A stretch of 64,000 nucleotides of DNA from Pilaira anomala (lineage: Eukaryota > Mucoromycota > Mucoromycetes > Mucorales > Mucoraceae). Shown piece by piece: positions 1,343 through 51,091 of this stretch; position 1 is the stretch's first letter, and every line of letters begins with the position of its first letter. Below the pieces are notes generated by a model. That model worked only from the letters and a program-made list of their open reading frames with translations. It made no database searches and had not been told where the DNA came from. A program made the position numbers and the translations under genes. The DNA is taken from assembly GCA_025716855.1 (NCBI GenBank), contig JAIXMQ010000013.1:372001-436000 (forward strand), in the 5' to 3' direction.

Positions 1343-2928
1343 TTTTTTTTTTTTCTGTTTCTAATATAATAAAAATGTCAAAATTTTTTTGATTGTTATT
1401 TTTTGTTTGTTTGTTTGTTTGTTTTTTTTTACCAGTAATGAAGAGATTGATGGATTGATTGAGAGAGATGAGAGAGAGATGAGAGAGAGAGAGAGAGAGA
1501 TGAGAGAAAGGAAAAAGGATTGATTTGTATTTTTTTTTTAAAAAAAGGGAATATATATATATAACTTTTTATATATATAGGTAGTTCTTTTTTTGTTGAG
1601 TTATTTACTTGATTGTTTAAATCTTTATCGAAAAGTTTAAAATAATTCAAATATTAAAAAAAAAAAAGGGTGGTTTAAACAAGTGAGCGTAAATTAAGAG
1701 GGAGAGTAATTGGGACTTTTTTTCTTCTTTTTTTTTTTTTTGTAAAAAAAACAAAAGGAAGAAGAAGTGAGCAAAGATATATAAAAAAAAAAGGATAGAA
1801 ATTGATGAATAGAAAAAAAAGAGAAAAAAAAAAAAGAAGAGAAAACACTAGGAAATAATAAGTGGTATTTATACACAAAATAATGAAAACATGAATGTCA
1901 ATCGCAAGGATATTTGATCCGGATATTATAGTGTTTTGGTTTAAACATTGTAAATAGAGTTAATGAAAGGGATTCCCCTTGATTGTCATAGATGATTTCA
2001 CTTACTCTCTCTCTTTTCTTATTCTTTTCCCCTTCTTTTTAGTCTAGTGTAACCATTTTTTTTATCGTTTGCTGGGCTTTGCTCCCCTTAAAACAAACCA
2101 ATGTTCTCAAAGGTTATTAAGTATTACTGCTTTTGGTTTCTTCTCTCTCTCATTTTCTTTTTTAGTAGAAAACTTGAAAGCAAGGGATAACACAGCAGGA
2201 AAAATAAAATCAAAAATAGTAAAGAGTATATACTTCTTTATATAAAAAAAAAAAAAGTAGTAGTAGTAGTAACTAGTAAAGAAAAAGGGGCTCTCTCTCT
2301 CTCTCTCTCTCTCTCTTCATTGATCAAGTTGGATTTATTGGGGGATAATGTTAAAATGAGGAAATTTGGCCTCGATGAGTTTTTCCCAAAGACGCGTTTA
2401 TCCTTTTTAAAAAAAACAACAAAAGACCATGTGTTTATTTTTGATTTAAATATATTTAGACTTTTCACTCATATACGCAATCTCTCTCTCTCTTTCTCTC
2501 TTTCTCTTTCTTGAGATGAAAATCAACTTTTTCAGGTATGATTAAAAAAATTCAAAGTTGGTTTTTTTTTTTTTTTATAAAAGAAACATATTGTCAATTA
2601 CTTTAATTGACAATGTCCCTTGTTGTTTATTATTTTGAATAAATAAAAAAGTAAAATTCATGCGATCATTGACAATTACAAAGTGAGAGTGAGTTTGAGT
2701 GCGTGCAATGTGTGTGTGACCATGATGGTAGTTTAGGTTAGTTTAAACTGCACCAAGAAAATCTTTGTTTGACTGTCAGTGATTTAAAAATACTTGAGAA
2801 AGCTATAAACAGTAATATTCAAGATAAATAAGTTTCATAAACATCTCATATAAAGGAGAGAAAAAGGTGGGGGATATCAAGAGGTTAATTTATTTCAATT
2901 TGTTAAATCAAAACGTGTTTTTTTTTTA

Positions 2929-2966
<38 letters not shown>
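1343..2966. other. Intergenic: long 5' flank of the Msn2-like gene
   Basis: No credible coding region. On the gene strand this is CT-rich and T-rich sequence with (CT)n runs near 1470-1500 and 2292-2316, TATA-like repeats near 1550-1580 and many homopolymers. LMBD1 ends at the far side, so this whole stretch can serve only the zinc-finger gene as upstream DNA, apart from the LMBD1 3' UTR. Confidence 0.6.
1975..2290 (-). promoter_or_regulatory. Cluster of four stress-response-element cores (AGGGG)
   Basis: CCCCT occurs on the plus strand (AGGGG on the gene strand) at 1975-1979, 2029-2033 and 2084-2088, and AGGGG occurs on the plus strand at 2286-2290. These lie about 630-950 bp upstream of the Msn2-like start codon. 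AGGGG is the known binding core of the Msn2/4 family, so autoregulation is possible. The motif is short and function is inferred. Confidence 0.35.
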
Positions 2967-4881
2967 TTATGTTAACGTTTGGTAATAACTACTACCCATA
3001 CTATTATTTCGATGACTGTTTCTTCTTCTATCCAGTAAACCTTCTTCTTCTTCATCCACGAGTTCTTGCAGATCTGCATCTACATTATTTCTAGGTCGCT
3101 TAAATAATGAGATGATAAATCCAATCAAGAATACAACTAAAAACACCCATTGAGAATAATAGAAAAATATACCAAAGAAGGGCGTATTCACAATGATTCT
3201 ATCGATCAATGTAGATGAGACTGTGGGTGTACAAATGTCTGTTTATAATAATAATAATAATAATAATAAAAACTTGTTTGTTAATATCATTGTAACCTTT
3301 TTTTTTTTTTTTTGATCTTTTTTTTTTTTACCTGTCGGTCCGTAAACGTCACATCGAACAATTAACTCGCTATGATTCGTACAGTCACGATGTCCATCAA
3401 GTAACGTTTGATTACACTATAATTCCAAAAAAAAAAAAATTAATTAATTAACTTTATGTATATAAATACCCTTGATAAACTTTACATAGACTTGACTTCC
3501 GAAATGAGCATATCCTGGTGCAACAGTCGTAGTCATAGTATAGTTTAGAGCCAACAAACTTAGGGTTAATAATAAAGCAGTGACAAGTAAACCTTGTGGA
3601 GCAGTTGCACCTTTTCTGATATTAAAGAGTGTAATCCATAAAAATCTTATACCGATATAAATTACACCTGACATCGTAGCCAAGAAAAAGTATAGAATCA
3701 AACCGACCATAAACATATAATCAAGTGGGAATATCTTTGATAATCGAACAAAGATGTAATTAATCGGGTTAAATAAGTTAGGGTGGTTAATCACGTAACC
3801 ACATTGACTTCCACATAAAGAAAATGCAATCTTGTCAACTCTGTTCATGGTTTTATCAGTTAAAAAATCGAATCATTTTCTTTTTAATACACTTACATGG
3901 TTAAAAAGATGGAAACGACTAAAACAAGAGTTACGCATAGTAAAAATATGCCAAGTAAAAACTAGTTTTTTTTTTTTTTTTTAAGGAGAAAGGTTCTCAT
4001 AAAAATAGTCAAATATAGTCAAAAAAAAAAAAAAAAAAAAAAAAAAGAGAGAAACTTACTTCAAAGGGTCTTAAAAACATGAGTATTTTAGAAAACAAAC
4101 TTGATTTATCCAATTGAATTGCTTTTAATCTTCTTGATAGTATTCTAAATCAAATAAAAATAAATTAACATACATACATACATAACGCTATGACCAACTT
4201 ACCTTTCTTCATCTTCTAAATCTTCCAATGCCCTTTGATCTTTATTTGGCATAGTTCTACCAATATATCTTGAACGTAAAACTCGTAATCTTTCTTTGGT
4301 TGCAGCTAATCTATTTTCTACGTCTTCGTTTTCTGCATCAATACCCTTACGTCCTTTAATTAAGCTGATAGGTAACAATGATAAACCAGGCGCCTTTTTT
4401 TTTTTTTTTTTTTTTATAATATAAAATTGTTCAGCCTTTCTATCTTTCTTTCTTTCTTTCTTTCTTATCTCCTTAAATGTATACTTACAGTATATCCAAT
4501 AAAGACCAACATACCAAGTAAAATAAGACATGCGACAACAAATGTAATTGCTTTTTCTCCATCTATAGCATGATTTAATGATCACGATGATATAAATTAA
4601 CATGAAATGATGACTTACTGCTATCGGTTAAAAGCTTTTTAAACCAATCTAAATCAATTTTTGGAACTTTTGTGGATGGTTTCAAAAATAGCCCAAATAC
4701 GAATAATAAAATGGAAATAATGACGAAAAATAAAGTATATTTGAAAGCGCCCAATACCCTATCTTTGATCGATTGATCTTCATCGTACTCCTCATAAAAG
4801 AAATAAGCAAAAGGGATCAAGGTGAAACTAAATAAAGTAATTAAACCATAACATGCTAAATAAATGTTAGGTCACACACTT

Positions 4882-4919
<38 letters not shown>

Positions 4920-5334
4920 ATATATTACCGTAGTAAACGATAGTCGTTGTATAAGTCATTGACTCTAAAACACTGGTGGTTGCCCAAGGTTTTTTAATTC
5001 CCTTGAGTGGATCGACTGTACTTGAAACTAAAAAGATATCAAGTGGTAATAAACAAAGTGTTGAAAACACGAGGCCTAATGCCAAGATGGTAACAAGTGT
5101 GGCGAAAAATTCGGTTTCATACTTGTTTTGAAAGTATCGTGTTAACCCTATACTGAATAAAAATGACGTCTATATTTCCAAGTATATATATATATATATA
5201 AAAAGAAAGGGTTTGAATATGTTGTTAATATTTTCTCTGCAAGTTATTATTATTATTTTTTTATTTTTATTTTTTTCATTTACAAGTGCAATTATGCCAT
5301 ATACTGTCCAAGCAATGCCTTCTACTGCGGACAT
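2967..5334 (-). CDS. LMBRD1: LMBD1-type lysosomal/vacuolar membrane protein (cobalamin export family)
   Basis: Ten exons: 5284-5334, 4929-5169, 4619-4855, 4489-4562, 4203-4393, 4060-4144, 3897-3961, 3486-3840, 3332-3416, 2967-3238. All splice junctions are GT-AG and in phase, giving 551 aa (human LMBD1 is about 540). Family landmarks include LPLDIFLVSS after the second membrane span, the IPFAYFFYEEYDEDQS loop, NGEKAITF before a membrane helix, the coiled cytosolic loop ending in LRPFE, and the C-terminal APGYAHFGSQVY segment followed by the last span. About nine hydrophobic helices are visible. LMBD1 acts in lysosomal membranes and in animals works with ABCD4 to release vitamin B12. Fungal members carry the same name, but their substrate is unproven. 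The acidic, Asn-rich tail is typical of the C-terminal cytosolic end. The acceptor of exon 5 follows an unbroken run of about 20 A residues. Confidence 0.9.
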
Positions 5335-5559
5335 ATTATAAAGTTATACTGTATATTTGTGTGTGTACGTAAAAAAGAAATAAAATAAAGAGAGAAAAAA
5401 AGAAAGAAAGAAAGAAAGAGAGAGAGTATGAAATAAAAAATAAGCCATGACACCATGATTTTACTGGTTTTTTTTTTTTTTTTTTTTAAGTACCCGTAAA
5501 TTTTTTATTTTTTTTATTTATGCATTATTTTCTCTTTTTTTTTAACTACTACACACAAT

Positions 5560-6477
5560 TTACTTCTCACTGCTATCTAATAAATCAGCAATACGAGCCA
5601 TTAAATCAGTATGTTCAGGGTTAGGTGTACTGTTATCAGGTGTTTCAGTACGTTGCTTACGTAATCGAATACCATTTAATTGATTATTATTATAATTTCT
5701 ATTAGCATATCGATCAAAGGAAGCATCATAAGATTCATAATTATTCAAGAGAGGAATTTCGGAAGAAGAACCCTTGGGCTTTAATGTGACTTCCACTCTA
5801 GGTTTTCCTTGTGGATCAATTTGAGCACTATGAACATAAAGGATACGAGCCCTTCTATCACCTGTATTACGAAGACCGATCGAATTACGTTTAGGTAAAG
5901 AGGCGGCAACTCCACCAATACCAGCCACAAATCCTTGTCTCTCTAAGTTCAAGATACGACCATGTACAGGGTAATCCCAACCAACTTGATGATCAGAGTA
6001 AGTAGGACCTACAACAGAATTAGTAGTATCATCTGCACTATCTGATAAGTTGACGTTCAAGTAATCGTATAATTGATCTGGTACAAGTTCCTTTTTAGCA
6101 ACGGCTTGTTGGAAAGCCTTTGCTTTCTTTTGTGATTGACGAAGGAAACGTTGGAATTCGGCAGGGGTCATAGTAGCTAAATTGTGTTGCACGGTTTCAG
6201 AACGTGGTTTGGGTTTTTCTGAGTTGGGGAAATTCTCCTTCCAACGCTTTACAAATAATACTTGCGATTCGCCTGATTCCCATGGTGTTTGATGTTCGGA
6301 CGTGTCAAGTGCTCCTACTGTCAAGAACTTTGTACGAATAACTGTTGGTAAGTTACGTTTTAAACCCCAGTCTCCGATGAGTTTACGTCTTATGGGTGTT
6401 GTATACACTTGTGATATAGTGCGATCATAAGTTGCTAGTTTCGATTGACGAAGTAAATTACCAAACGAGGTTGTCAT
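5560..6477 (-). CDS. MRP51: Mitochondrial small-subunit ribosomal protein Mrp51 (bS1m-like)
   Basis: Single-exon gene of 305 aa. The start is placed at the ATG giving MTTSFGNLLRQSKLATYD. A longer reading frame begins upstream but runs through a poly-T tract and is not credible. The N-terminal block with LLRQSKLA, RKLIGDWGLKRNLP and the following FESG/WESGES-like segment matches the conserved core of fungal Mrp51, a component of the mitochondrial 37S subunit needed for translation of some mitochondrial mRNAs. The C-terminal half is polar and poorly conserved in this family. Basic and hydroxylated residues at the N-terminus fit a mitochondrial targeting role. Confidence 0.8.
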   Translation of the reverse strand: MTTSFGNLLRQSKLATYDRTISQVYTTPIRRKLIGDWGLKRNLPTVIRTKFLTVGALDTSEHQTPWESGESQVLFVKRWKENFPNSEKPKPRSETVQHNLATMTPAEFQRFLRQSQKKAKAFQQAVAKKELVPDQLYDYLNVNLSDSADDTTNSVVGPTYSDHQVGWDYPVHGRILNLERQGFVAGIGGVAASLPKRNSIGLRNTGDRRARILYVHSAQIDPQGKPRVEVTLKPKGSSSEIPLLNNYESYDASFDRYANRNYNNNQLNGIRLRKQRTETPDNSTPNPEHTDLMARIADLLDSSEK

Positions 6478-7477
6478 TATATTTTTATTGCAAGTAATGA
6501 AAAAAAAAAAAAAAAAAAAAAAAAAGTAGAATGACAAAAAAAAAAAAAAAAAAAAATTACCCCCGGTTTTGGCGCGCTTTCCGAAATAAAAAAAAAAAAA
6601 GGAAAGCGCTGCAGTAGTGCATGTATACTTTACTACGTACCTGATTTATAGGTGATGTAAAGAAAAGTATCTTGATTTAAAGGAGACTATTCTCATATAA
6701 AGATCAAGAAACAATACATGGTTGACCGACTGCTAGAAAGTTTACTTTATTTGAAAGTTAAAAATTCAGAGAAGAACTAAATTTGGGCTTTCACCTCATG
6801 AGAGTATAAAAAATTGACCTAGTTATATAATGATTGTTAGAAAGTTTTAAATATCAAGAGAAATTAGAACGAGATAACTGATTACATTTAATGCACCTCA
6901 ACCAAAAATTAAGCTTATGTTTGTAACTGCTTACGTATATATCGGATTGCAATAGAGTCTTCAAAGTATCTATATACATCTCGAGAATTTCACCCTTTAA
7001 AAAGACAAAGACTTGGAGCTACATCTACTTTTTTTCTCAATACACTATTCCATGCTAAGAGCATCGTTTGATTGGGTTAAGTTTTTGTTAGGGTGGGCAT
7101 TCTTATAAACGTCTTTTACGTATAATAGGGCATTTAAAAATAGTTGACAGATCTTTGTATGGTTGTTTGGAAAAGCCAAGTGTTGTATGTATCACATTAA
7201 ATAATACCATCAGGTTCCACAATATTCCTACTTTAGAGAGATAATGTAATACAAATTAACCAGAGTATACATATGCACGCGTCTTTACAGTAAATAAAGG
7301 CTAATTACAAGAAAAAAAAAAAAAAAAAAAAAAAAAAAGCACAGCCTCAGTTTCTATGGATACAAGGGATTGGAAAAATTAAAGCAAATAAATGTGGGCT
7401 TATAAAAAATAAAACGGTCGATCTTTATAAAAAGGAAAATACATTTATTTTTTTAAAAAAAAAAAGCGCAATATTTT
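6478..7477. other. Intergenic, no gene seen
   Basis: About 1 kb between MRP51 and the 3' end of the CipC-like gene. It holds a GC-rich patch at about 6558-6580 beside the MRP51 start, several A-runs (notably 7311-7338) and otherwise featureless A/T-rich DNA. No frame of useful length and no RNA gene signature were recognised. Confidence 0.6.
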
Positions 7478-8766
7478 TTATTTCTTCATGTCAAAGTAAT
7501 TTTGAGCAGCAGAAACAGCCATGTTTTGAAGAACGGATTTTTTCTTTTCCTTTTGTTCTTCATCATCATCTTCATCATCATCATCCGTACCACGTTCCAT
7601 GAACATCTTTACCATTTCTTTGGCAGCGTAACCAGCAATAGCTTGTTTAGCACCCTTAAAGTAAATATCCTCACCATCTGCTTCCTTTTGTTCCATGTAC
7701 ATTTGTACAGCTTGTACAGCAACCGCACCAGCAATGACTTCATAACTATTAATTACAATAAAATTATAAACTTTTAGTTTTAAATATACCAAAGTGTGAT
7801 GTAATTTTATACTAACCTTAAATGAGACTTTTTCTTTTCATATACCTTTTCATGAGCAGCCTTTAATTCCTTTTCCTTAAGAACAGCATCTTTATCAGAA
7901 CGTCCCCAACCACCCCAGTTACCAAACCAAGATCTTAATCGGTTACATTTATCATCATCTTCTTCATCGTCAGAGGAATCCAAAATACGTGGAGGATCAG
8001 CTAATTGGAAATCCCAGAGTTGGTTAAGTCCTTCTTCGGGCTTCTCGGAACGGTGGTAGATCATGATTGTGGCTCCTACACCATCTTTTTTCTTACGGAT
8101 ATCAACTACTTCTTGAGGTTCGAGAATAACATAAATATAACCGTGTTCACTGTCGTAACCAAATCTTTGATCAGAGGCCTTAAAAAAAAAAAAAAAAGAA
8201 GGTTACACTCAGGGGTCGGGTTGGGGTCCGAGATTTATGTACTTACTTGTTCTTCATGCTTCATGTTATCAACATAGACGTGTTCTTCACCAGAGAAGAT
8301 GGCTAATGAAGAATAACTTTTAGTTATCCAATAAGTTAATCTGTGTAGTTCTTACCCATGAAAGACTTGGATTTACCAACATCCAAAACGAGACCACTCA
8401 TCTTGTTAGTAAGGAAACCTAATTCAAGTTACGTGTTTTTTTTTTATTATTATTAAGAGACTAGTACGTATTTATGCTGTATTGCATTACTTTACCATTT
8501 TGGTGAATCCAAAGTTGACTATCTCTTGTCACTCTGTCTTCAATCTTTTCAGCGGTAACGATCTTGGAACCAGCCTAAAATATTCATTTATTAAGTATAT
8601 ACTTGGACGACGAGAATAAAAAAAAAAAAAAAGCCCTTATTTCTTTTCTTCTTTTTTTTTTTACCTTGACGGGTTCAGACTTGTCAATATCAAGAGCTAA
8701 ACCATTCATTTTAGAAATGATATAAAAATATCCCAAGGGGAAAGAATTAGGAGCTGCTACAGTCAT
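7478..8766 (-). CDS. Beta-trefoil (ricin-B-like) protein with C-terminal CipC/DUF3759 domain
   Basis: Six exons (8665-8766, 8496-8574, 8356-8418, 8247-8302, 7817-8178, 7478-7745) give 309 aa. Residues 1-145 contain repeated trefoil-like lobes with the pattern KMNGLALDI, KMSGLVLDV and QLWIHQNG/QLWDFQLA, as in ricin-B lectin-type folds in mucoralean proteins. An acidic linker (SSDDEEDDD) and a WFGNWGGWG motif follow. The C-terminal 120 residues, with SHLSYEVIAGAVAVQAV and AIAGYAAKEMVKMF, resemble the CipC/DUF3759 domain of small stress-responsive fungal proteins, and the protein ends in a DDDDEDDDEEQ stretch. The intron before exon 6 uses a GTTAGT donor. Sugar binding is not proven. The protein is probably intracellular, as no signal peptide is present. 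Confidence 0.7.
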
Positions 8767-21854: not shown

Positions 21855-22321
21855 ATGATTGGATTGAAGGGTACACTTAACGTCATTGACAACTCTGGAG
21901 CCATTCTTGCCGAATGTATTAAAGTTATGAGTGGTGCACGTTTTGCTAGAGCAGGTATGTCGAGATAAGTGGAGATATATTAAAATAAACGAAATTTTTT
22001 GACAAGGGTCAACTTATGTTTGTAGGTGACGAAATTGTATGTGTCGTTAAGCGTGCCAGACCTATCAACCCTAGCATCGCAGGTACTCAAGCAGCAGCAC
22101 AAAAAGTAAAGAAGGGTGATGTACGTCACGCACTTGTTGTTCGTACCAAGAAGGAAATGTCTCGTCCTGATGGTCGTACGATTCGATTTGATGATAATGC
22201 ATGTATTTTATTAAATTTAAAGAAAGAACCTCTTGGAACCCGTGTGTTGGGTGTTGTCGCAGCTGAATTAAGAACCAAGAATTGGATGAAGGCTGTTTCA
22301 CTCGCTCCTAGAATTGTATAA
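21855..22321 (+). CDS. MRPL38: Mitochondrial large-subunit ribosomal protein uL14m
   Basis: Two exons (21855-21954 and 22026-22321) give 131 aa. The sequence is a complete L14 protein: [20 protein letters not shown], the basic [16 protein letters not shown] segment and the C-terminal [14 protein letters not shown]. Cytosolic L23 homologues differ in these positions, whereas bacterial and mitochondrial L14 match. It binds 23S-like rRNA at the subunit interface of the mitoribosome. There is no long presequence, as in yeast Mrpl38. Confidence 0.92.
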
Positions 22322-22757
22322 ATTACTTGTAGAAGAAGAAGAAAAAAAGATGGTTTATTTTGAGGACTCAAAAAAAAACGTATATTTTCAGAAAAGCAAT
22401 TTCCCCCCGTATTCCTCAATTTTTATAAAAAGAACTGAAAAAAAAAACCAATAAAGTACATATAGAAAGAAAACAGAGATATAGATACTGGGAAGAGGAC
22501 TGGGCTATAAACGAGACAAAGCGCGTGAATTGCAGTAAAAGTTGTATTTTAAGGTTATCAGATTTTGCAGTTGTGAATTATTGATGTAAATTATTACTGT
22601 ACACACAGTCAAACCTATGCATTTTCACAAAAATAATTGTCAGTTTCATAAAAATGATTGGCCGAAAGGTAAAAATAATTGATGGGAACTGCCAAATAAA
22701 AGGCACAAGCTCGAAATAACATCGTGAGTATCGAGAAGCAGTCAATAAAGATCTAAC
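22322..22757. other. Intergenic, no gene seen
   Basis: 3' flank of uL14m plus the region into which the orphan exon at 22758-22856 would have to splice. No convincing following exon could be found on the minus strand. Confidence 0.5.
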
Positions 22758-22856
22758 CTTGAAAGGATTCATCTCTTCCTCATAATCGATTGCCTCATTT
22801 CCTTGTTCATTAGCAATGTTCCCTCGTCCATCATTATAAAAAAAGTTGTTGCTCAT
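22758..22856 (-). CDS. Orphan first exon, possible truncated gene
   Basis: An ATG-initiated frame encodes MSNNFFYNDGRGNIANEQGN and onward to EEEMNPFK, then meets a donor-like AAG|GTTAGA. The residues look protein-like (polar, acidic), but no continuation was found before the neighbouring gene on the opposite strand. It faintly resembles the exon-like segment in the adjacent tandem repeat (FVNERNPANREPFDYQTEA), suggesting a common origin. Function unknown. Confidence 0.25.
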
Positions 22857-23128
22857 TTCAAATAAGGTAAAAAAAAAATAAAAAAATAAAAGAAAAACAA
22901 CAGCAGTTTAAAACAGCAGTATACTGTGGCTCCTTAATGCTTAAGAACAGCCTTGACGGCTTTGCGCTAAAAGTAGGCTGAAGATTTATTCAACATGAAA
23001 AGAAAACAGTTATTTATGAGATCCCAACTGGTTCAGAGAAGATATATTAAATAGTAACGTCGGATTGCCAGGCGTTACAACAATTTTGAAGTTACGGATA
23101 CAGCGTGAAGGAAGCGGCTTTGCTTGAT

Positions 23129-23356
23129 TTAGCTTGCATAACTAGCCACAATGGAATTGTCATGGAGAATAACAAACAGAAAAACGACGAGTGAAGCAAA
23201 TAAAATAACCGTTAATACGCTGACAAACAGTACACCATGTTCCTTATCAGTCAAATGCGAATTGAAGAACCAAGGGCTTCTGTGCTCACCTTGCACCAGA
23301 CAAAACGACTTCTGTTGGGTAAAGCTTACGGCTCTCGATTTACAGGATTTTTTCAC
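23129..23356 (-). CDS. Small ORF at the edge of the tandem array, one membrane helix
   Basis: A 75-aa frame whose first half overlaps the most divergent copy of the tandem repeat and whose second half is unique sequence. It reads through HRSPWFFNSHLTDKEHGVLF into a strongly hydrophobic helix (FVSVLTVILFASLVVFLFVI). Inner repeat copies carry stops in this frame. It could be the 3' exon of the gene from which the array was amplified, or a chance frame. No homologue recognised. Confidence 0.3.
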   Translation of the reverse strand: MKKSCKSRAVSFTQQKSFCLVQGEHRSPWFFNSHLTDKEHGVLFVSVLTVILFASLVVFLFVILHDNSIVASYAS

Positions 23357-25495
23357 TCAAAAAACGTTAGACCAAGAAAAAATAAGAAAAAAAAAAGCTA
23401 ATTAGCTGACAAATACCTTTTATAAAACCATACCGAGTTTTCCGTCAGTCAAATGCGAATCAAAGAACCAAGGGCTTTTATGCTCACCTTGTACCAAGCA
23501 AAAAGGCCTCCACTTGCTAAGCTTACGGCTTCCGTTTGATAATCAAACGGTTCTCGATTTGCTGGATTTCTTTCATTCACAAAATAAGACGCTAAAATAC
23601 AGAAAAAGAATGAGTAAAGCAAAAAATAAAAAAAAAGTTAATTAGTAGCTGACAAATACCTTTTATAAAACCACGCCGAGTTTTCCGTCAGTCAAATGCG
23701 AATCAAAGAACCAAGGGCTTTTATGCTCACCTTGTACCAAGCAAAAAGGCCTCCACTTGCTAAGCTTACGGCTTCCGTTTGATAATCAAACGGTTCTCGA
23801 TTTGCTGGATTTCTTTCATTCACAAAATTAGACGCTATAACACAGAAAAAGAATGAGTAAACCAAAAAAAAAAAAGAAAAAAGAAAAAAGATAAAGGCTA
23901 GTTAGCTGGCAAATACCTTTTATAAAACCACGCCGAGTTTTCCGTCAGTCAAATGTGAATCAAAGAACCAAGGGCTTTTATGCTCACCTTGTACCAAACA
24001 AAAAGGCCTCCACTTGCTTAGCTTACGGCTTCCGTTTGATAATCAAACGTTTCTCGATTTGCTGGATTTCTTTCATTCACAAAATTAGACGCTATAACAC
24101 AGAAAAAGAATGAGTAAACCAAAAAAAAAAAAGAAAAAAGAAAAAAGATAAAGGCTAGTTAGCTGGCAAATACCTTTTATAAAACCACGCCGAGTTTTCC
24201 GTCAGTCAAATGTGAATCAAAGAACCAAGGGCTTTTATGCTCACCTTGTACCAAACAAAAAGGCCTCCACTTGCTTAGCTTACGGCTTCCGTTTGATAAT
24301 CAAACGGTTCTCGATTTGCTGGATTTCTTTCATTCACAAAATTAGACGCTAAAATACAGAAAAAGAATGAGTAAACCAAAAAAAAGATAAAAGCTAATTA
24401 GCTGGCAAATACCTTTTATAAAACCACGCCGAGTTTTCCGTCAGTCAAATGCGAATCAAAGAACCAAGGGCTTCTATGCTCACCTTGTACCAGACAAAAA
24501 GGCCTCCACTTGCTTAGCTTACGGCTTCCGTTTGATAATCAAACGGTTCTCGATTTGCTGGATTTCTTTCATTCACAAAATAAGACGCTACAACACAGAA
24601 AAAGAATGAGTAAACCAAAAAAAAGATAAAAGCTAATTAGCTGGCAAATACCTTTTATAAAACCACGCCGAGTTTTCCGTCAGTCAAATGCGAATCAAAG
24701 AACCAAGGGCTTTTATGCTCACCTTGTACCAAGCAAAAAGGCCTCCACTTGCTTAGCTTACGGCTTCCGTTTGATAATCAAACGGTTCTCGATTTGCTGG
24801 ATTTCTTTCATTCACAAAATAAGACGCTACAACACAGAAAAAGAATGAGTAAACCAAAAAAAAGATAAAAGCTAATTAGCTGGCAAATACCTTTTATAAA
24901 ACCACGCCGAGTTTTCCGTCAGTCAAATGCGAATCAAAGAACCAAGGGCTTCTATGCTCACCTTGTACCAAGCAAAAAGGCCTCCACTTGCTAAGCTTAC
25001 GGCTTCCGTTTGATAATCAAACGGTTCTCGATTTGCTGGATTTCTTTCATTCACAAAATAAGACGCTAAAACACAGAAAAAGAATGAGTAAACCAAAAAA
25101 AGATAAAAGCTAGTTAGCTGGCAAATACCTTTTATAAAACCACGCCGAGTTTTCCGTCAGTCAAATACGAATCAAAGAACCAAGAGCTTTTATGCTCACC
25201 TTGTACCAGACAAAACGGCCTCCACTTGTTAAGCTTACGGCTTTCGATTTACAGGATTTCTTTCATTCACAAAATAAGACGCTAAAACACAGAAAAAAGA
25301 ATGAGTAACCAAAAAAAAAAAAAAGAAAAGCAAAGAAAAAAAAAGCAAATACCTTTTATAAAACCACACCGAGTTTCAAATACGAACTAAAGAACCAAGG
25401 GCTTCTGTGCTCACTTTGTACCAGATAAAACGGCTTCTGATTGATAAAGCTTTCGGCTCTCGATTTGCAGGATATCTTTTAATCGCAAGAGAAAA
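23220..25495. repeat. Tandem array, about 10 copies of a ~239-bp unit
   Basis: Units start at the shared motif AAATACCTTTTATAAAACCA at 23411, 23653, 23911, 24168, 24407, 24646, 24885, 25123 and 25347, plus a divergent partial copy at 23220-23410. Spacings are about 242, 258, 257, 239, 239, 239, 238 and 224 bp. The length differences lie mainly in an A-rich spacer. Inner copies are nearly identical and the outer ones are diverged, as expected from unequal crossing-over or gene conversion. Seven inner copies carry the palindrome CCGTTTGATAATCAAACGG (with one T-for-G variant in the 23911 copy). The outer copies lack it. On the minus strand each inner unit shows a T-rich tract, AG, a ~104-nt open segment and AAG|GTGAGC, resembling an exon. 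Confidence 0.92.
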
Positions 25496-25656
25496 AAGAA
25501 AATAAAAAAATTTTCATGGGAATATGACGTATTAAATGATAAAAATAACTTTGTTTATTTTTGATGAAAACATTGTACACAGCAAAGGAATAATAATATA
25601 AATACGGAATGATACAAGAAAAAAAAAAAAAAAAAAAAGAGGAGAAATATATAAGA
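25496..25656. other. Spacer between tandem array and MED13 3' end
   Basis: A-rich and T-rich sequence with an A-run at 25620-25638; likely the MED13 3' UTR. Confidence 0.5.
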
Positions 25657-28634
25657 TTATGTATTAACAAGTAATATACGAGAAAGTCTTTCTACTAGAG
25701 CGAGATGAATTGGAAGACAATTGCTATTGGATGGCATCACATTCACATAGGAAAGAGCGTGGTATTTCTTGATGATATCTCTTAATGTGCTATAGGCAGA
25801 ATGGTTGGTTTGATTAAATGATAAATGGATCTATTATATCATATTAGTATCTGTTAACCTTTTTTTATGTAGTTGTATAATATGTTACCTCTATCACAAG
25901 TGGATCGCAGTTGAACAATTCGGTGTTAGGATTCTCGGTTACGGGAGCTGTATGAATCATATAACCACTTGCTAAGGGTATCATCCAATCTTCTACTTCA
26001 GAAACAGGATCTATGCCAAGTACGCCGTTTGATACACGCTCTCGTTTATTGGAATAAGCAACGCGATGATTTAACAATAACGCCTTTGTCAATCCTAATC
26101 CCGTTGCACTTGTTTTTTTATTTCCAGTAGTGGTTGTAGTGGTTGCATTCATCATATTATGTGCGCTGGTATTACCCAGTGTATCAGAGGGATTTGATGT
26201 ATCATTCATACCTCGTAAATCCGAAGTAGGACTGACATATAATGAAGACTCGATATCTAGACTGACAATAGCTACTTTATCTTCAGAGGAGATACATTGA
26301 ATCCAAGCTTGTAACTCATCTTGAAACAGTAGACCTATTTTAGCAATGACAATTGTCCAAGCAAATCCAGCACGTTTCGAAATTTCTTTGGTCTTTGCCC
26401 AAGCTTCTTCAAATACAGTCGTTAAAGGAAGTTTAAAAGGTTGGTTATCAAGGACAGAAAACTCTACAAGTTCGCCACGATTATCAGTCCAAACAATAAT
26501 CATGTACCTGTTATCAAAACTAAAACAGTAACCCATATGTAGTACAGCGTGAGATTCAAGGATATCAGGAAATGCATTCAATGCTGGCTTCTTCAGTTTA
26601 AATGGAATAGAGGTAGGTAAAGGTTTAGATAAGATGAAGGCAGGAGCGTACATTTCTGTCACGGGCCTTGTATCCTCTGTTATACCGGTTTTTATAGCAT
26701 GGTGGTGCCTGCCCACGACTGCGTGACACTTGCTGTATACTGAGAATGCAATTTCTTTTAACCCAAATTTGAGGCAACCACCAAAGGATGTGGAACGTAA
26801 TATGTGTTCAATGGGGACAAGTTGAAGTGCAAGCCTTGGACGTGACTTTTCAGTAATTCTTGAGCTCATGGATGCAGCGTTAAATGCAATCATTAGTTTA
26901 TTAAAGCATCCACTAAGGTCTAAATTAGAGCCCAAGTGAGAAGCAGGGTTCACCATGTAGATGACTGTATGTACGTTTTCGGCCATAGAGCCTCCTAATA
27001 CAGAACCTAAAGTTTGACACTCGGCTACATAACTTCTTAACTGCCGTTCGTCCATTGATTCATCTTCTACTTGAGCTATGGGAGTAAGGTAGTATTAAGT
27101 ATGACTAAGTAGTTCGCGTGTTCTTTTTTTTTTTTTTTTTTTTCTATTTACTTACGAAGTAATGAAACAGGAACAAGACCTTTACGATAAAGACCCGTAT
27201 TACCAGGATGATGAACACCTAAATGACAAGTCTCATACAAGGCACTCAAGCCCTTAAAGAAATGGGTGACACTATTTTCAATTGACTCGTTCCTTGGGTA
27301 AACGACGAAATAATTAATGTGCTTTTTACTAGAGTATGGTTCCAGGCGTAATTTCTCCCAAAACATGATTAGATTTGAAGGGCCTTCTATAAAGTCTTCT
27401 TGCCGGCTGATGGTGATATTAGGTGGTTGTAGTGTGTCGAGATTGGGTTCAGCAGGTCGACGTTTTTTGACTTGATATTTGCCGTATTTAGAGTGTGTTT
27501 GATTTGTTTCTATTGTGTGTGAGGGGGGCGGGGGCGGGAGTTAGAAAATAGTTTAAATAAATTGAATATAAAAAAAAAAAAAGCTTTTTACCTGACAAAT
27601 CGTAATATTGTTGAACATTTAATGGTCCTTTGACAGTGACAGAAACAGGTAAAGGTAATTGATCAATACACATATCATTTAAATCCGTATTTTTTCTTTG
27701 ATAGAATATATCCGCTAAAACGTTTTTGAAATTTTGAGTCATATAATCTACATCGTTTGGTGTAGAAGGAATATGAATTGTGTCTAATAAACTTTATTTG
27801 TAAGTACATAAATCCTTTGTATAAATAAAAAAAAAAAAAAAAAAAATTATTGTTATTACCTCCATTAAACTTTTGTAATAAGTTTCTTCTTCTTGCGACC
27901 AAGATCTTTGCAGATTCACCTTCGTTGGCCTCAAATCCGTTGGAAGACATCGACTCAATACCACCTGAAAATGGGTACCCACCCATAACAGCTTGTTGAC
28001 ATAAATAATCTAATGCTTTTGTCTCCTCTGTCTCCGATATGTTCTTTTTAGAGCTCAAGTGAATTATACTGCTTGCCACTGTGCGTGGGAACGGACTATC
28101 GTAATCCATCACCATTTTTTCTACTGATACGCGATTCTTTATTGTACGTGGAGGTGCCGTACTAATGAACGAATACAAGTACTTATCTTGTGCACGCATT
28201 AATGCCTTCAAAGTACGTGAAACACGTTGACTTTCATCTTCGCTCTCACTTTCTGATTCAGATTCTTCAGTTGAGCTTTCTTCTGTATGGCTGCTACTAG
28301 CGGTAGTACTGGTGCTTGTACTAGTAGTAGATGAAGCGGTGGTTAGGGTTGCAGCTTTTAAAGTAGATCGATTCAAGTCTTCTTGTGGATCATGTTCAGT
28401 CGTACTCGATAGTAGTTTAGATGATTTTCTTTTATCGGATTTCTTTTTACGAATCAAAGGAACATAATCTGGCTGATAATCGTTTGACTTTCGTTTTGCG
28501 TGAGGGAAATTTGGTTCGTATGTAAATTTACCGCCATTGACGTATTTTGAGTCGTTTACCATAAAGTCTATTTTGACCGGAGCAAATTGAGGAGGAACAA
28601 ATGAAGTATCGGATGGTGGAATGATAAACACGGA

Positions 28635-28679
<45 letters not shown>

Positions 28680-31180
28680 TTGTTGTTGTTGTTGCTGTTG
28701 CTGCATACGTGAAAATGGGTCATGCTGTGCCATGCCGACTTCTAATGGAGTTACAGAAACATCCTGGGTTAATTCGTCTTCCATCTCTGTATCTAGTATA
28801 TGCTGTTGTTGCTTTTCGTCTAATGTGACTAGATCTTTATTATCGAATTCAGTAAACGTTGGCGGCACTTGATCAATTAATGAATCGAGCATCATTGTAT
28901 CTTCAACAAACGTGTGAGAGTCAACAGAAGCTAATAATGTGGTAGGTGCTGGAGGCACAGGTGCAGGTGTTGGACCAGACTCAAAAAAGTCGAAATCTTC
29001 TTCGGTCACACCGAAATCAAAATTATCTAAATCGCCCATACCGTCGTCTGTCCATCGATTTGGCATGTCTAATACCATACTATCTACATCCATATTCTCA
29101 ATAATTCCAAATGCCTCTAATTCAAGATTGGGCATCTGTGGAGATTGATAGACTGAATTAGAGACTGTGTTTATAGTATTAGGATGTGCTTCAATTGTCA
29201 TATTCTTGGCGGATAAATTTTGATTTAACTTGTTTGGTTGTGGACTTAGATCATCGGTTATCGCAACAGGTAAAATAGGTGTACTTATTAACTCGGGATA
29301 CTCTGGTAATTGATCGTCCGTGTTATTTGGTAGTGCGAAATGGGCCAAAGCGAAATCTACTAAAGATAATCCAGATTGATACCTTGCCTTTGTACGCTGT
29401 TGTAATTGATATTGTGGTTGATAATGTTGTTGTTGTTGTACCGAGGTATCATCATCATCTGGTAAAGATGAATTAGGTGTCATGCTAGAATCGTTACGTT
29501 GACAACCTGTTGCTGAACCAGGAGTAGCTACTGATTTTGTAGCCATGAGTGGACTAGCGATGACAGGTTCATTAATTGCTTTTTGTAATAAATTTGGCAT
29601 GGTATTTGTGTTTGTGTCAAGTGATAAAGTGTCAAGTACGGTTGTAATCGTTGTATCGCGAGGGCATGCGTATTCCCAGTAGTTAGAAATTTTCTCGCTC
29701 CAGACAGATCGATGCCATTTATCTCCCAGATCCTCTGTAAAACCTTGGTTGAAACCAAAAAGTCCGTTCATACCTGCCATTGCAGTTGGTGATAAGCGAG
29801 AAGATGATGATATGAAAATAAGACGTGACGGGTAATAAAATGTCTCATCCGTTGGTGATACTTTAATTGCTACCAAGTTTGGCAAAGCCTTTTGTTGTTG
29901 TTGTTGCTGTTGTTGCTGTTGTTGTTGTTGTTGTTGTTGTTGTGCATGATTATATGGGTGATGATGTTTATAAGTTGGTGGTGAAGGAGGTGGTTGTTGG
30001 ATCAAATTGGTATAGGGTATATCTAATAATAAGGACCATTTCTTTAATATGTTGTCTTCCATTTGTTGTGGTAAAGAGTAAGTATTGGTGGCAATATAAG
30101 CTGTTTCTCCTGAAGGACTGATAATCACTATATATATTTTACAAATTTCGATTTAATATGTATACAGCACCCGCTTCCTAATTATTTATAACGTACCTTT
30201 TTTGCCTCGGTTACGAATGGTTTGAATTGTAATGGGTCGAATACGTATACGACGTGTATTAGGTTGAAAGATTAAATTGGTACTTGCTAAATAAATATTA
30301 TAAGAACAACAAAGTAAAGAAGTTGTTAAATAGAGTGAGTTGGATTGAACTGATTTATCGTGCCCAATGACATCTTGATCACTATTTGGAAATATATAAA
30401 ATTCACTGCCTAAAGGGAAAGCACCTTTATTTTTCATTTGTCTAGTTATCCTAGGTTAGACTTTCTACCATCATTGACGTTCAAAGAGCAAATAATAATG
30501 ATAAAAAAAAAAAAAGGTCAACTTACACGTGAACCAAGTTTCGAATAGACTTTATAAATAATTTGTATTCTTCAGAGACCGTTACTGGAGTACTAGCGTT
30601 AGATTGGGTTGAAGAAGCTAGAGGTGATGCAGTGGGAGATTGAATGGTACTGTATGCGTTTTCCCAAGTAAACGATCCCACCTTAATCTCTATTTGCATA
30701 TTTATTGTCAGTTTTTTTTTTTTTTTTTTTAAAAAAAAGTCAATTCTTCAGCTTTCTTTAAGTTTACCTTCAAGGTCGTCCAGGTCATCACTTGCATCTA
30801 TTTTACCAGTGTGTCTTTCATCGAACCAGAATACCCAAAGTTCAAGAACAAGGTCTTTTCCCGGTTCAGCTGACTGGGAAGAGATTCGCCAAAAAGCAGG
30901 TATACTGGAAGATATTAAGGTTGTGTATGCTTTCATCAATATATCTTTTGAAGTATCATAGTTTGGAGTACATTTTAAGTAATTGATAAGATTTTCTCGT
31001 GTACAGTGTTGGTTATAAACTCTATAACGTATTTGCGATACGCCACTCTACATACATGAAAGAGAATCAATTGATCAGTTTCAGGTAACTTTTTTTTTTT
31101 TTTTTTTTTCGTTATGTTTTTTTTTTTTTTTTTTTTTTTACCACAACGAGTATATTTGTTAAACTTGAGTCGGTGAGCAT
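25657..31180 (-). CDS. MED13: Mediator complex subunit 13
   Basis: Nine exons (31142-31180, 30768-31047, 30527-30689, 30197-30450, 27860-30127, 27592-27783, 27156-27509, 25889-27075, 25657-25830) give 1636 aa. The N-terminal domain begins MLTDSSLTNILVV|SGVSQIRYRVYN and carries PAFWRISSQ and DLVLELWVFWFDE, typical of Med13_N. A long low-complexity middle has polyQ near residues 307-326 and 720-743. The C-terminal domain holds HVTVIYMVNP-like and LQLVPIEHILRS segments and the MYAPAFILSKP and GYCFSFDNRYMIIVWTDNRG strands of the PIWI-like fold. Med13 links the CDK8-cyclin C kinase module to core Mediator. Length is close to ascomycete Med13. Confidence 0.92.
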
Positions 31181-48994: not shown

Positions 48995-51091
48995 TTAATA
49001 GTGCTCTTGTTCTCTATGAATGCCAAGACCATACTTTCCAGAAACTTTTTTGCCGCATAGTGTGCATTCGATTTGTCTTTTCATTCGCGTTCTTTTTGCA
49101 CCTGCTATTGTTGGCTGAATCGAACTTGATGATTCAAGCACCGTTGTTGGACTTAAGGTTGGTTTGAACTCTGATTTGATTTTAGGTCGCAACCCATGGA
49201 CATGAGTTGAATGATTGGAAGCCTCTCTTAAAGATAAATATATGGCTTGACAGCTATAACATTTAAAATCTTCAAGGCTTACATGAGAAGCTAGCTTCAA
49301 ATTGTGAGATATTTGAACATGTTTACTACATGATTTCCAGTCGGGAAACATTTCCATACATAACGTACAATGCGTTTGGTGAGAGTGTGAGTTGCTTTTA
49401 AGGTGAGAGATGGTATAACGATGAATATTTTGTAAATGATTACAATAGGAAGAAAATGTCTTACAGCGTTTGTCGCATGCAGCACAATAAAACGCAGGGT
49501 CATTCAAAGAAGGTAATACTGAATTATTAATTGCAGAAACATTGTGTATAAAGTTGATATGACATGAGAATGTTTTAAAATTAAGAAAATATCTTTCACA
49601 TGCGGCACAATAGCGATCCGGGTGGTTAATATCTGGTATGATATCGGGGTGAAGGATACGTTTTCTATTGACAGGATATAAACGCATTTGATGGACTCGA
49701 AGGAAATGGATTCTATATGCATTTCGATTCTTACATTGTTTATCACAAATATAGCAGTAAAGAGATGGGTTTAGTGTCCCAGCCAAAGGTTCTAAAATAC
49801 TGTTCGATGTGCGTGTACTGTTGTTAATATTACTTTCAGAATTATCATTCGATGTTGTTTTTTCACCATTGAGCGTAGGATGGCTATAAGTAAGATGCTG
49901 GATAATTGAGTCTCTATCTGTTAAGTGTTGGTCGCAAGTGATACAATGAAGATGTGGGTTATCTCTTCCCAAGTTACTGGCTGTATCTCTAGTTCCTTTA
50001 TGGTAATTTATCAAATGTCTTTCGAAATCGCCTCTCGTGTTGTAATTTATGTTACATTCATTACAGTATGAGTCCCAGTTAATAGTTTCAGCATCATTTA
50101 TGGTTTCATGAAGTTCTGTGGGGAGTAAAAAACGATACTTTGGTAAAAGAACCGGAGTTTTGAAAGTACTAAAACATTCTGACTTGATTCCAGATGAGTG
50201 CATTTCGTGGATATGTGACAGAAATGATTCTATCGTACATGGTTTTAAACAAACGTTACAATAAAGTTTTTCAGAACAATTATCTTCGATTTCAGATTCA
50301 TCACTTTCATTAGTTACAATATCGTCTAAAAGAATATTAGTTAAAAATATGTTTACCGTCAATTTAAAAGTTCAAGTGGAGGTCTTACCATGGGAAACAA
50401 CGGAATCGTTGTTACTTGAACGTGAAGAAGCCCTTTGCATAGGCAAACTTTGAATATCATGTTCAATTTCATCTCCTTCGTCTTCTGGTTCCGTGTCAAG
50501 TTCTAATTCAATTCTTGATTCTGTTTCAACACCTTCGTGTTCTTCATTTTCTGAACACCTGTTTTCATCCTCTTGTGCTACTTTATCCCACTCCATGTCA
50601 AGACCAAATTCCTTATAATCTGAAGGGTTGTTCTCCACTGGCCCTTCTTCAACTGTTGAATGATTAATATCAAGGTCAGAGCTTTCTTCCAAGGCTGAAG
50701 ATACATTATCATTCACCGTCTGAACATGAGCTGATTCAGTACTTTCAATTGGTATACTTTGTTTTTCTTGATTTAAAGTCTCAGTTACTTGTTGCTTGAT
50801 AGATCTGTTGATCCTTCTATTTGATCTTTCTTTTGCTTCTTTTTCCGCTTTTTCTGCTGCTGTTACTTCTGGTAGTGCTTCTTTTCCTTCTACTACTGTT
50901 ACTTTTCTTGGTCTACCTCTTGTCATTCTTCGATTTGGTGGTCTACCTCTTCTCACTTCTCCAGTAATTGTTTTATCGCTTCTCACTGCCACTTTCCTTG
51001 GTCTACCTCTTCTCTCTTCTCCAGTAATTGTTTTATCTCTTCTCATTGGTAGTTTTCTTGGTCTTCCTCTTTTTGGTTTATTAGAAGTCAT
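48995..51091 (-). CDS. AT-hook plus nine-finger C2H2 protein
   Basis: Two exons (50389-51091 and 48995-50325) give 677 aa. The N-terminal 70 residues carry four RGRP cores (KRGRPRK, RRGRPRK, RRGRPPN, TRGRPRK) of AT-hook type, which bind the minor groove of A/T-rich DNA. A Glu/Ser-rich acidic middle follows. Exon 2 encodes nine C2H2 fingers, starting at CNVCLKPCTIESFLSHIHEMH and ending at CTLCGKKVSGKYGLGIHREQ. Many fingers are preceded by an NxPxxYC or NxPxxHC linker. Likely a nuclear DNA-binding protein; targets unknown. It is related to its downstream neighbour and to the remnant at 47291. Confidence 0.82.

Follow-up and report, generated by a model that had tools for sequence, protein, structure and literature searches.

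The window analysed here, a 64,000-nucleotide stretch of the Pilaira anomala genome, carries ten head-to-tail copies of a tandem unit (W1–W10), which fill positions 23,230–25,495 (~2.3 kb) between two ordinary host genes. These are the ribosomal protein gene uL14 (plus strand) and MED13 (minus strand), arranged convergently, tail to tail, and the array and its flanks appear to form a copy of a transposon-like element lying between them. The features of the locus are as follows, with C204 and C150 denoting two other contigs of the genome that carry related arrays.

22,016–22,318, plus strand: host neighbour, 3′ part of the ORF of ribosomal protein uL14 (PF00238, E 4.8e-34)
22,604–22,715, plus strand: left terminal inverted repeat (TIR) of a Tc1-type element, 94% identical over 94 bp to C204
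22,770–22,847, minus strand: putative N-terminal transposase scrap within ORF 22,578–22,856, reading away from the array
22,888–23,229, plus strand: unique left flank (leader block), common to the C150 and C204 elements
23,230–23,410, plus strand: W1, partial and diverged, without a TATA-like start; corresponds to the first C204/C150 unit
23,411–23,653, plus strand: W2
23,654–23,910, plus strand: W3
23,911–24,167, plus strand: W4
24,168–24,406, plus strand: W5
24,407–24,645, plus strand: W6
24,646–24,884, plus strand: W7
24,694–24,807, plus strand: core example in W7 (CCAAGGGC..GCTCACCTTGTACCA..GGATT), one of ten profile matches in the window
24,885–25,122, plus strand: W8
25,123–25,346, plus strand: W9, lacking the small palindromic insert of W2–W8
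25,347–25,495, plus strand: W10, partial; counterpart of the last C204/C150 unit, 89% identical to C204_4
25,496–25,535, plus strand: right flank common with C204 (35 of 39 aligned bases match, 6 gap columns)
25,868–27,055, minus strand: host neighbour, MED13 C-terminal domain ORF (Med13_C, PF06333, E 3.6e-50)

With 500 as the longest period tried, TRF placed the array at 23,884–25,243 (period 239, 5.6 copies, 96% matches, score 2369), and a profile of the unit core found ten copies spanning 23,261–25,478, which agrees with the position beside MED13 given in a preliminary description of this DNA. That description had also remarked that nothing else in the window looked alike, and only 2 of the 48 TRF rows had periods above 100 bp, the period-239 row and a period-216 row overlapping it. 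Elsewhere in the window, we noted a 60-bp tandem repeat at 50,939–51,071 (2.2 copies, 89% matches) and a TGC/CAG run at 28,636–28,704 that corresponds to a glutamine tract in ORF 27,675–30,128 (minus strand).

The units W2–W9 are spaced at 243, 257, 257, 239, 239, 239, 238, and 224 bp, and the partial end copies measure 181 bp (W1) and 149 bp (W10), so that the unit length of 239 to 258 bp first reported is replaced by a range of 224–257 bp plus the partial ends. The 20-bp start attributed to the copies, AAATACCTTTTATAAAACCA, is exact in nine of the ten and missing from W1; direct reading shows that TTTTATAAAA, located at the start of the unit, is its own reverse complement. In a multiple alignment, W3–W8 were 97–99% identical among themselves and 92–95% identical to W2 (92–99% for the whole W2–W8 set), W9 was 89–92% identical to W2–W8, and W10 was 78–82% identical to the other window units. 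W1 showed only 70–74% identity to W2–W9 and 80% to W10. The earlier impression of near-identical inner copies with diverged terminal ones was thus borne out. A ~22-bp near-palindromic insert, CCGTTTGATAATCAAACGG, was read by eye in W2–W8 only (checked in the alignment for W1, W2, W4, W8, W9, and W10), and its confinement to those seven fits their descent from one unit.

To the left of the array, the window copy retains one recognisable element end. The sequence CAGTCAAACC begins at 22,606 and is preceded by CA rather than TA, and the TIR aligns to the C150 end in blocks with 48/50, 45/50, and 9/11 positions identical, 11 columns of the alignment being gaps. The adjoining scrap gave no match in a Pfam search; compared with the N-terminal ORF of a further element (C145), it aligned at 46% over 26 aa by tblastn (E 0.001) and at 69% over 16 aa by blastp (E 2.3e-5), and from these short matches (16–26 aa) we assign it, with moderate confidence, to the N-terminal part of the element's transposase. 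The leader is 96% identical to its relatives over 22,931–23,236 and exact over 22,888–22,910, with at least four matches in the genome (the window, C204, and C150 twice).

On the right, the homology ends at ~25,535, where C204 continues towards its gene. That gene is absent from the window copy, as none of 33 gene matches fell on C35, and no second element end was found, the sole candidate being at chance level. This candidate, a supposedly decayed end at ~25,573, was a 16-bp gapped match equalled by 12–18 of 1,725 window positions, and was also too diverged, given that a real end would be expected to be ~90% identical, like the rest of the copy.

Searching the 34.25-Mb genome with the start motif returned 16 exact matches, a lower bound like all our genome pattern and DNA-search counts, comprising nine in the window, four on C150, and three on C204 (none with the reversed control), while whole-unit matches numbered at least 20 (ten, six, and four, respectively). 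On C204 and C150, 215-bp units lie inside elements with TA-flanked inverted repeats (CAGTCAAACCTATGG...), placed between a transposase remnant of Tc1 type (DDE_3) that reads leftward and, on the other side, a rightward gene whose product would carry a PD-(D/E)XK nuclease signature (E..PD..ExK). Given these two opposed neighbours, the block occupies an apparent divergent intergenic region. The order in C204 is an arm with the DDE_3 fragment (minus strand), the leader, 3.5 of the 215-bp units, a gene with several exons (1,430–3,238, with the exon choice made in this analysis), an inverted arm, and TA. Its left end is lost at the contig start, and only one of its sides proved to hold an array; the 690 bp at its right end match the inverted C150 left end at 99.6%, with the array and gene inside.

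The C150 element has TA at both ends (2,229–2,230 and 8,678–8,679 of the extracted locus, L029) and two inverted arms of 2,710 bp, 99.96% alike and each with its own array. Each arm comprises the end, a DDE_3 fragment, the leader, the array, and the 5′ part of the gene, which runs from one arm across the centre as far as residue 446 of a 485-residue gene model. Positions 2,489–8,375 of this locus (C150:53,488–59,374) form a near-perfect palindrome with 2.7-kb arms in which half of the element is present twice; it may be a foldback product or have arisen by recent inverted duplication. The DDE_3 match had an E value of 2.9e-8 in the C204 and C150 arms and of 1.6e-13 in the C145 element, and all are remnants.

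The TIR family as a whole gave 21 DNA matches in the genome, and a 15-bp motif from the end was matched exactly at eight sites. With up to 7 mismatches allowed and no TA demanded, a 30-bp pattern of the end, run on 15 loci picked from the earlier TIR matches, gave 14 matches, 12 with TA in front and two apparently shifted by small indels, and none with the reversed control; the ends in the window, on C1, and at the left of C150 escaped it. Both TIR ends, each with TA, are present in the elements on C150, on C142, and on C215 near 351 kb. The C142 element (76,729–83,754; L051, L082, and L075) is 7.0 kb long and has a PD-(D/E)XK-type gene, a tandem repeat of 2.0 × 291 bp near the opposite end, and another ORF that is transposase-like by eye, and the C215 element (351,781–353,171; L074) is 1.39 kb long with 1.9 copies of a 169-bp repeat. 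A 1.2-kb stretch that lies next to this family of TIRs is 85% alike between C1 at 181.8 kb (L093) and C13 at 583 kb (L066). Its ORFs appear Harbinger-like by eye, and Pfam gave a sub-threshold HTH_Tnp_4 match for one and none for the other.

Within each unit, we delimited a core of ~85 bp, CCAAGGGC..GCTCACCTTGTACCA..AAAACGG....GGATT, which is also present at three further loci beside transposable element-type genes on C165, C215, and C1. On C165, a diverged relative of the nuclease-signature gene has it on the upstream side (three exact-motif copies; two full and two partial profile matches). Two copies are found on C215 near 605 kb and one on C1, in both cases downstream of Tc1-type transposase remnants. 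BLAST of C204 against these two loci matched only 45 bp in the array region, so they do not share the remainder of the unit. The restriction of the core to these loci follows from the genome pattern and DNA searches (lower bounds) and from a profile giving 27 matches over 32 sources, 10 of the 27 being sequences used to build it. One mismatch in the core motif was tolerated in at least 11 matches, three in the known arrays and eight elsewhere. Seven of the latter were set aside as one unrelated repeated sequence (L083–L087) and two unrelated single sites (L088 and L090), and L089 is a true core. Between the window and C204, the core is 83–90% identical and the rest of the unit 78–89%, so the core is not better kept.

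Recurrence at three further loci beside transposable element-type genes suggests that the core unit probably once had a role in cis, as a protein-binding region or perhaps as a two-way promoter. The latter is suggested by the divergent layout and the self-complementary unit start, while the lack of stronger conservation of the core between the window and C204 speaks against it.

The unit tree grouped W1 with C204_1/C150L_1 (support 0.93) and W10 with C204_4/C150L_3 (support 0.84), while the inner units grouped by site. Both W1 and W10 are closer to their counterparts in the relatives than to neighbouring window units, and from this match of the outermost units across sites, the ancestor would already have had several units. 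Pairwise comparison of the window with C204 in 50-bp blocks gave 90–100% identity in the leader (22,931–23,230), 86–92% in W1, and 88–90% in W10, against 83–87% for W2–W8 compared with C204_2, so that the array edges look inherited and the middle replaced. On these sequence comparisons, we regard the re-amplified middle as a case of concerted evolution.

Taken together, we consider the array, with a probability of roughly 0.77, to be the tandem-repeat block from inside a truncated DNA transposon of Tc1/mariner type lodged between the convergent uL14 and MED13 genes, whose inner units were multiplied and homogenised and whose unit was perhaps once cis-acting. The ancestral element would have held several units between its transposase and nuclease-signature genes, the window copy would have lost its right half (the gene and second end), and its inner units would have multiplied and been kept alike, most simply via unequal exchange or gene conversion; truncation may have preceded or followed this amplification. 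The relatives have the TA at their ends, TIRs, and DDE_3 remnants of Tc1/mariner elements, with the TA duplication read from the element ends alone. Against such an assignment for the window copy itself stand the CA directly before its single TIR, the missing second end, and the shortness of its N-terminal transposase scrap.

The preliminary description was in part right. It recognised no transposon and named a transposon match as grounds for rejection; in substance such a match exists, since it is within TIR-bearing elements that the related arrays are found. Its suggestion of an amplified exon of a lost gene holds insofar as the sequence is amplified and the gene is missing here, but what was amplified is an upstream, intergenic part of a transposon. 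For its further suggestion, a source of small RNA, the observations are that none of eight folded strands stood out and that Rfam had no match at the array. Its suggestion of a satellite fits loosely for one 2.3-kb array, but the related arrays are shorter, occur on just two other contigs, and sit inside elements. Long independent arrays were thus not seen, and the array is not a free-standing satellite.

A possible, if doubtful, alternative is that the unit is a working module at present, which would provide extra transposase- or nuclease-binding sites such that more units would make a better substrate. The arrays in both inverted arms of C150, the core kept at five kinds of locus, and the long-period repeats of two other TIR-bounded elements (2.0 × 291 bp on C142; 1.9 × 169 bp on C215 at 351,781–353,171) would suit this. 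However, 24 comparisons between TIR ends and units (three ends by four units, both strands) gave nothing significant (lowest shuffle p 0.17), and an 8-mer common to both, CAGTCAAA, had p 0.64–0.88. The core profile found no match in those C142 and C215 repeats, and the two loci covering the C13 element had no long-period repeat.

A host satellite or minisatellite of independent origin, picked up or entered by mobile elements, is very unlikely. Such an origin is in keeping with the satellite-like array and with the window copy having one recognisable element end only, yet genome searches (counts being lower bounds) found no unit copy outside these elements, both array flanks are common with them, and the edge units correspond. 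A shade less credible again is the idea of a small structured RNA encoded in every unit, for which one could cite the imperfect inverted repeat CAAGG...CCTTG that many copies of the core contain and the TATA-like start in nine of the ten units. Against it, folding of eight strands gave a lowest z of −1.8 (10 of 200 shuffles as good) and otherwise −1.2 to +0.3; no Rfam match was found at the array (one sub-threshold match, E 0.55, lay elsewhere, in L052), and no tRNA was found in the window. An assembly artefact, whether a collapsed or a falsely expanded repeat, has the lowest probability in our estimation, as the inner copies differ in both substitutions and spacer length, the array is interior to a 678,731-base contig, and related arrays occur on two other contigs.

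A bolder reading, which we regard as unlikely, is that the core and the PD-(D/E)XK-type nuclease gene within Tc1-type ends would form a working mobile package in Mucorales, moving between genera, with the core as a two-way promoter or recognition array and the nuclease acting on the repeats or by way of them (e.g., in copying, formation of the C150 palindrome, or array growth). The gene itself is not in the window copy; a gene 91% identical occurs in Rhizopus microsporus. A sequence search of the PDB found no relative, and a structure model of the protein P0006 (A5), with a mean pLDDT of 47.5, was not of usable quality. The C165-type gene (P0004, P0005, and P0006) was 94–96% identical across Benjaminiella, Phycomyces, and Mucor plumbeus records, an identity that suggests horizontal transfer.

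Read as a truncated transposon, the locus represents a process known in kind, with a few unusual details, and the odd repeat block is explained without a new satellite. One genome would hold both relatives with 3–4 units and an amplified relic with ten, comparable unit by unit, and if the array is still changing, strains should differ in its length, which would allow the transition from part of a transposon to a satellite-like array to be traced. Tc1-type ends are here combined with a tandem array upstream and a nuclease-like gene that has as yet been encountered in Mucorales only, an association that merits a study of its own. Judged from papers rather than from Dfam or Repbase, the element family is apparently new, and in the available portions of the literature, no publication was recognised as being about it.

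Compared with the Tc1/mariner elements of Mucorales, as far as the consulted part of their description extends (PMC7928374), the present elements share TA before the ends, CAGT-type ends, and DDE_3 transposase remnants; unlike them, the window copy encodes nothing complete, and its C204 and C150 relatives contain a tandem array as well as a gene of PD-(D/E)XK type. Galileo of Drosophila likewise has tandem repeats in the inverted-repeat region of a DNA transposon, said in the available text to hold extra transposase binding sites; repeats of both Galileo and Tetris have been proposed as such extra sites (PMC4079207). The foldback-like trait of long inverted repeats holding tandem repeats is seen here in the 2,710-bp arms of C150, while C204 has its array on one side and the window copy is truncated. 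The closest precedent, going by the same portions of that source, is Tetris of Drosophila virilis, an apparently non-autonomous foldback transposon with internal ~220-bp tandem repeats (TIR-220) whose number differs from copy to copy and which also form longer satellite-like arrays, for which unequal crossing-over was proposed (PMC4079207). Like Tetris, the elements described here appear to be non-autonomous DNA transposons with internal tandem repeats whose number varies between copies; Tetris belongs to another transposon family and another kingdom, whereas here the array adjoins a carried nuclease-signature gene, the largest array being a single block of 2.3 kb.
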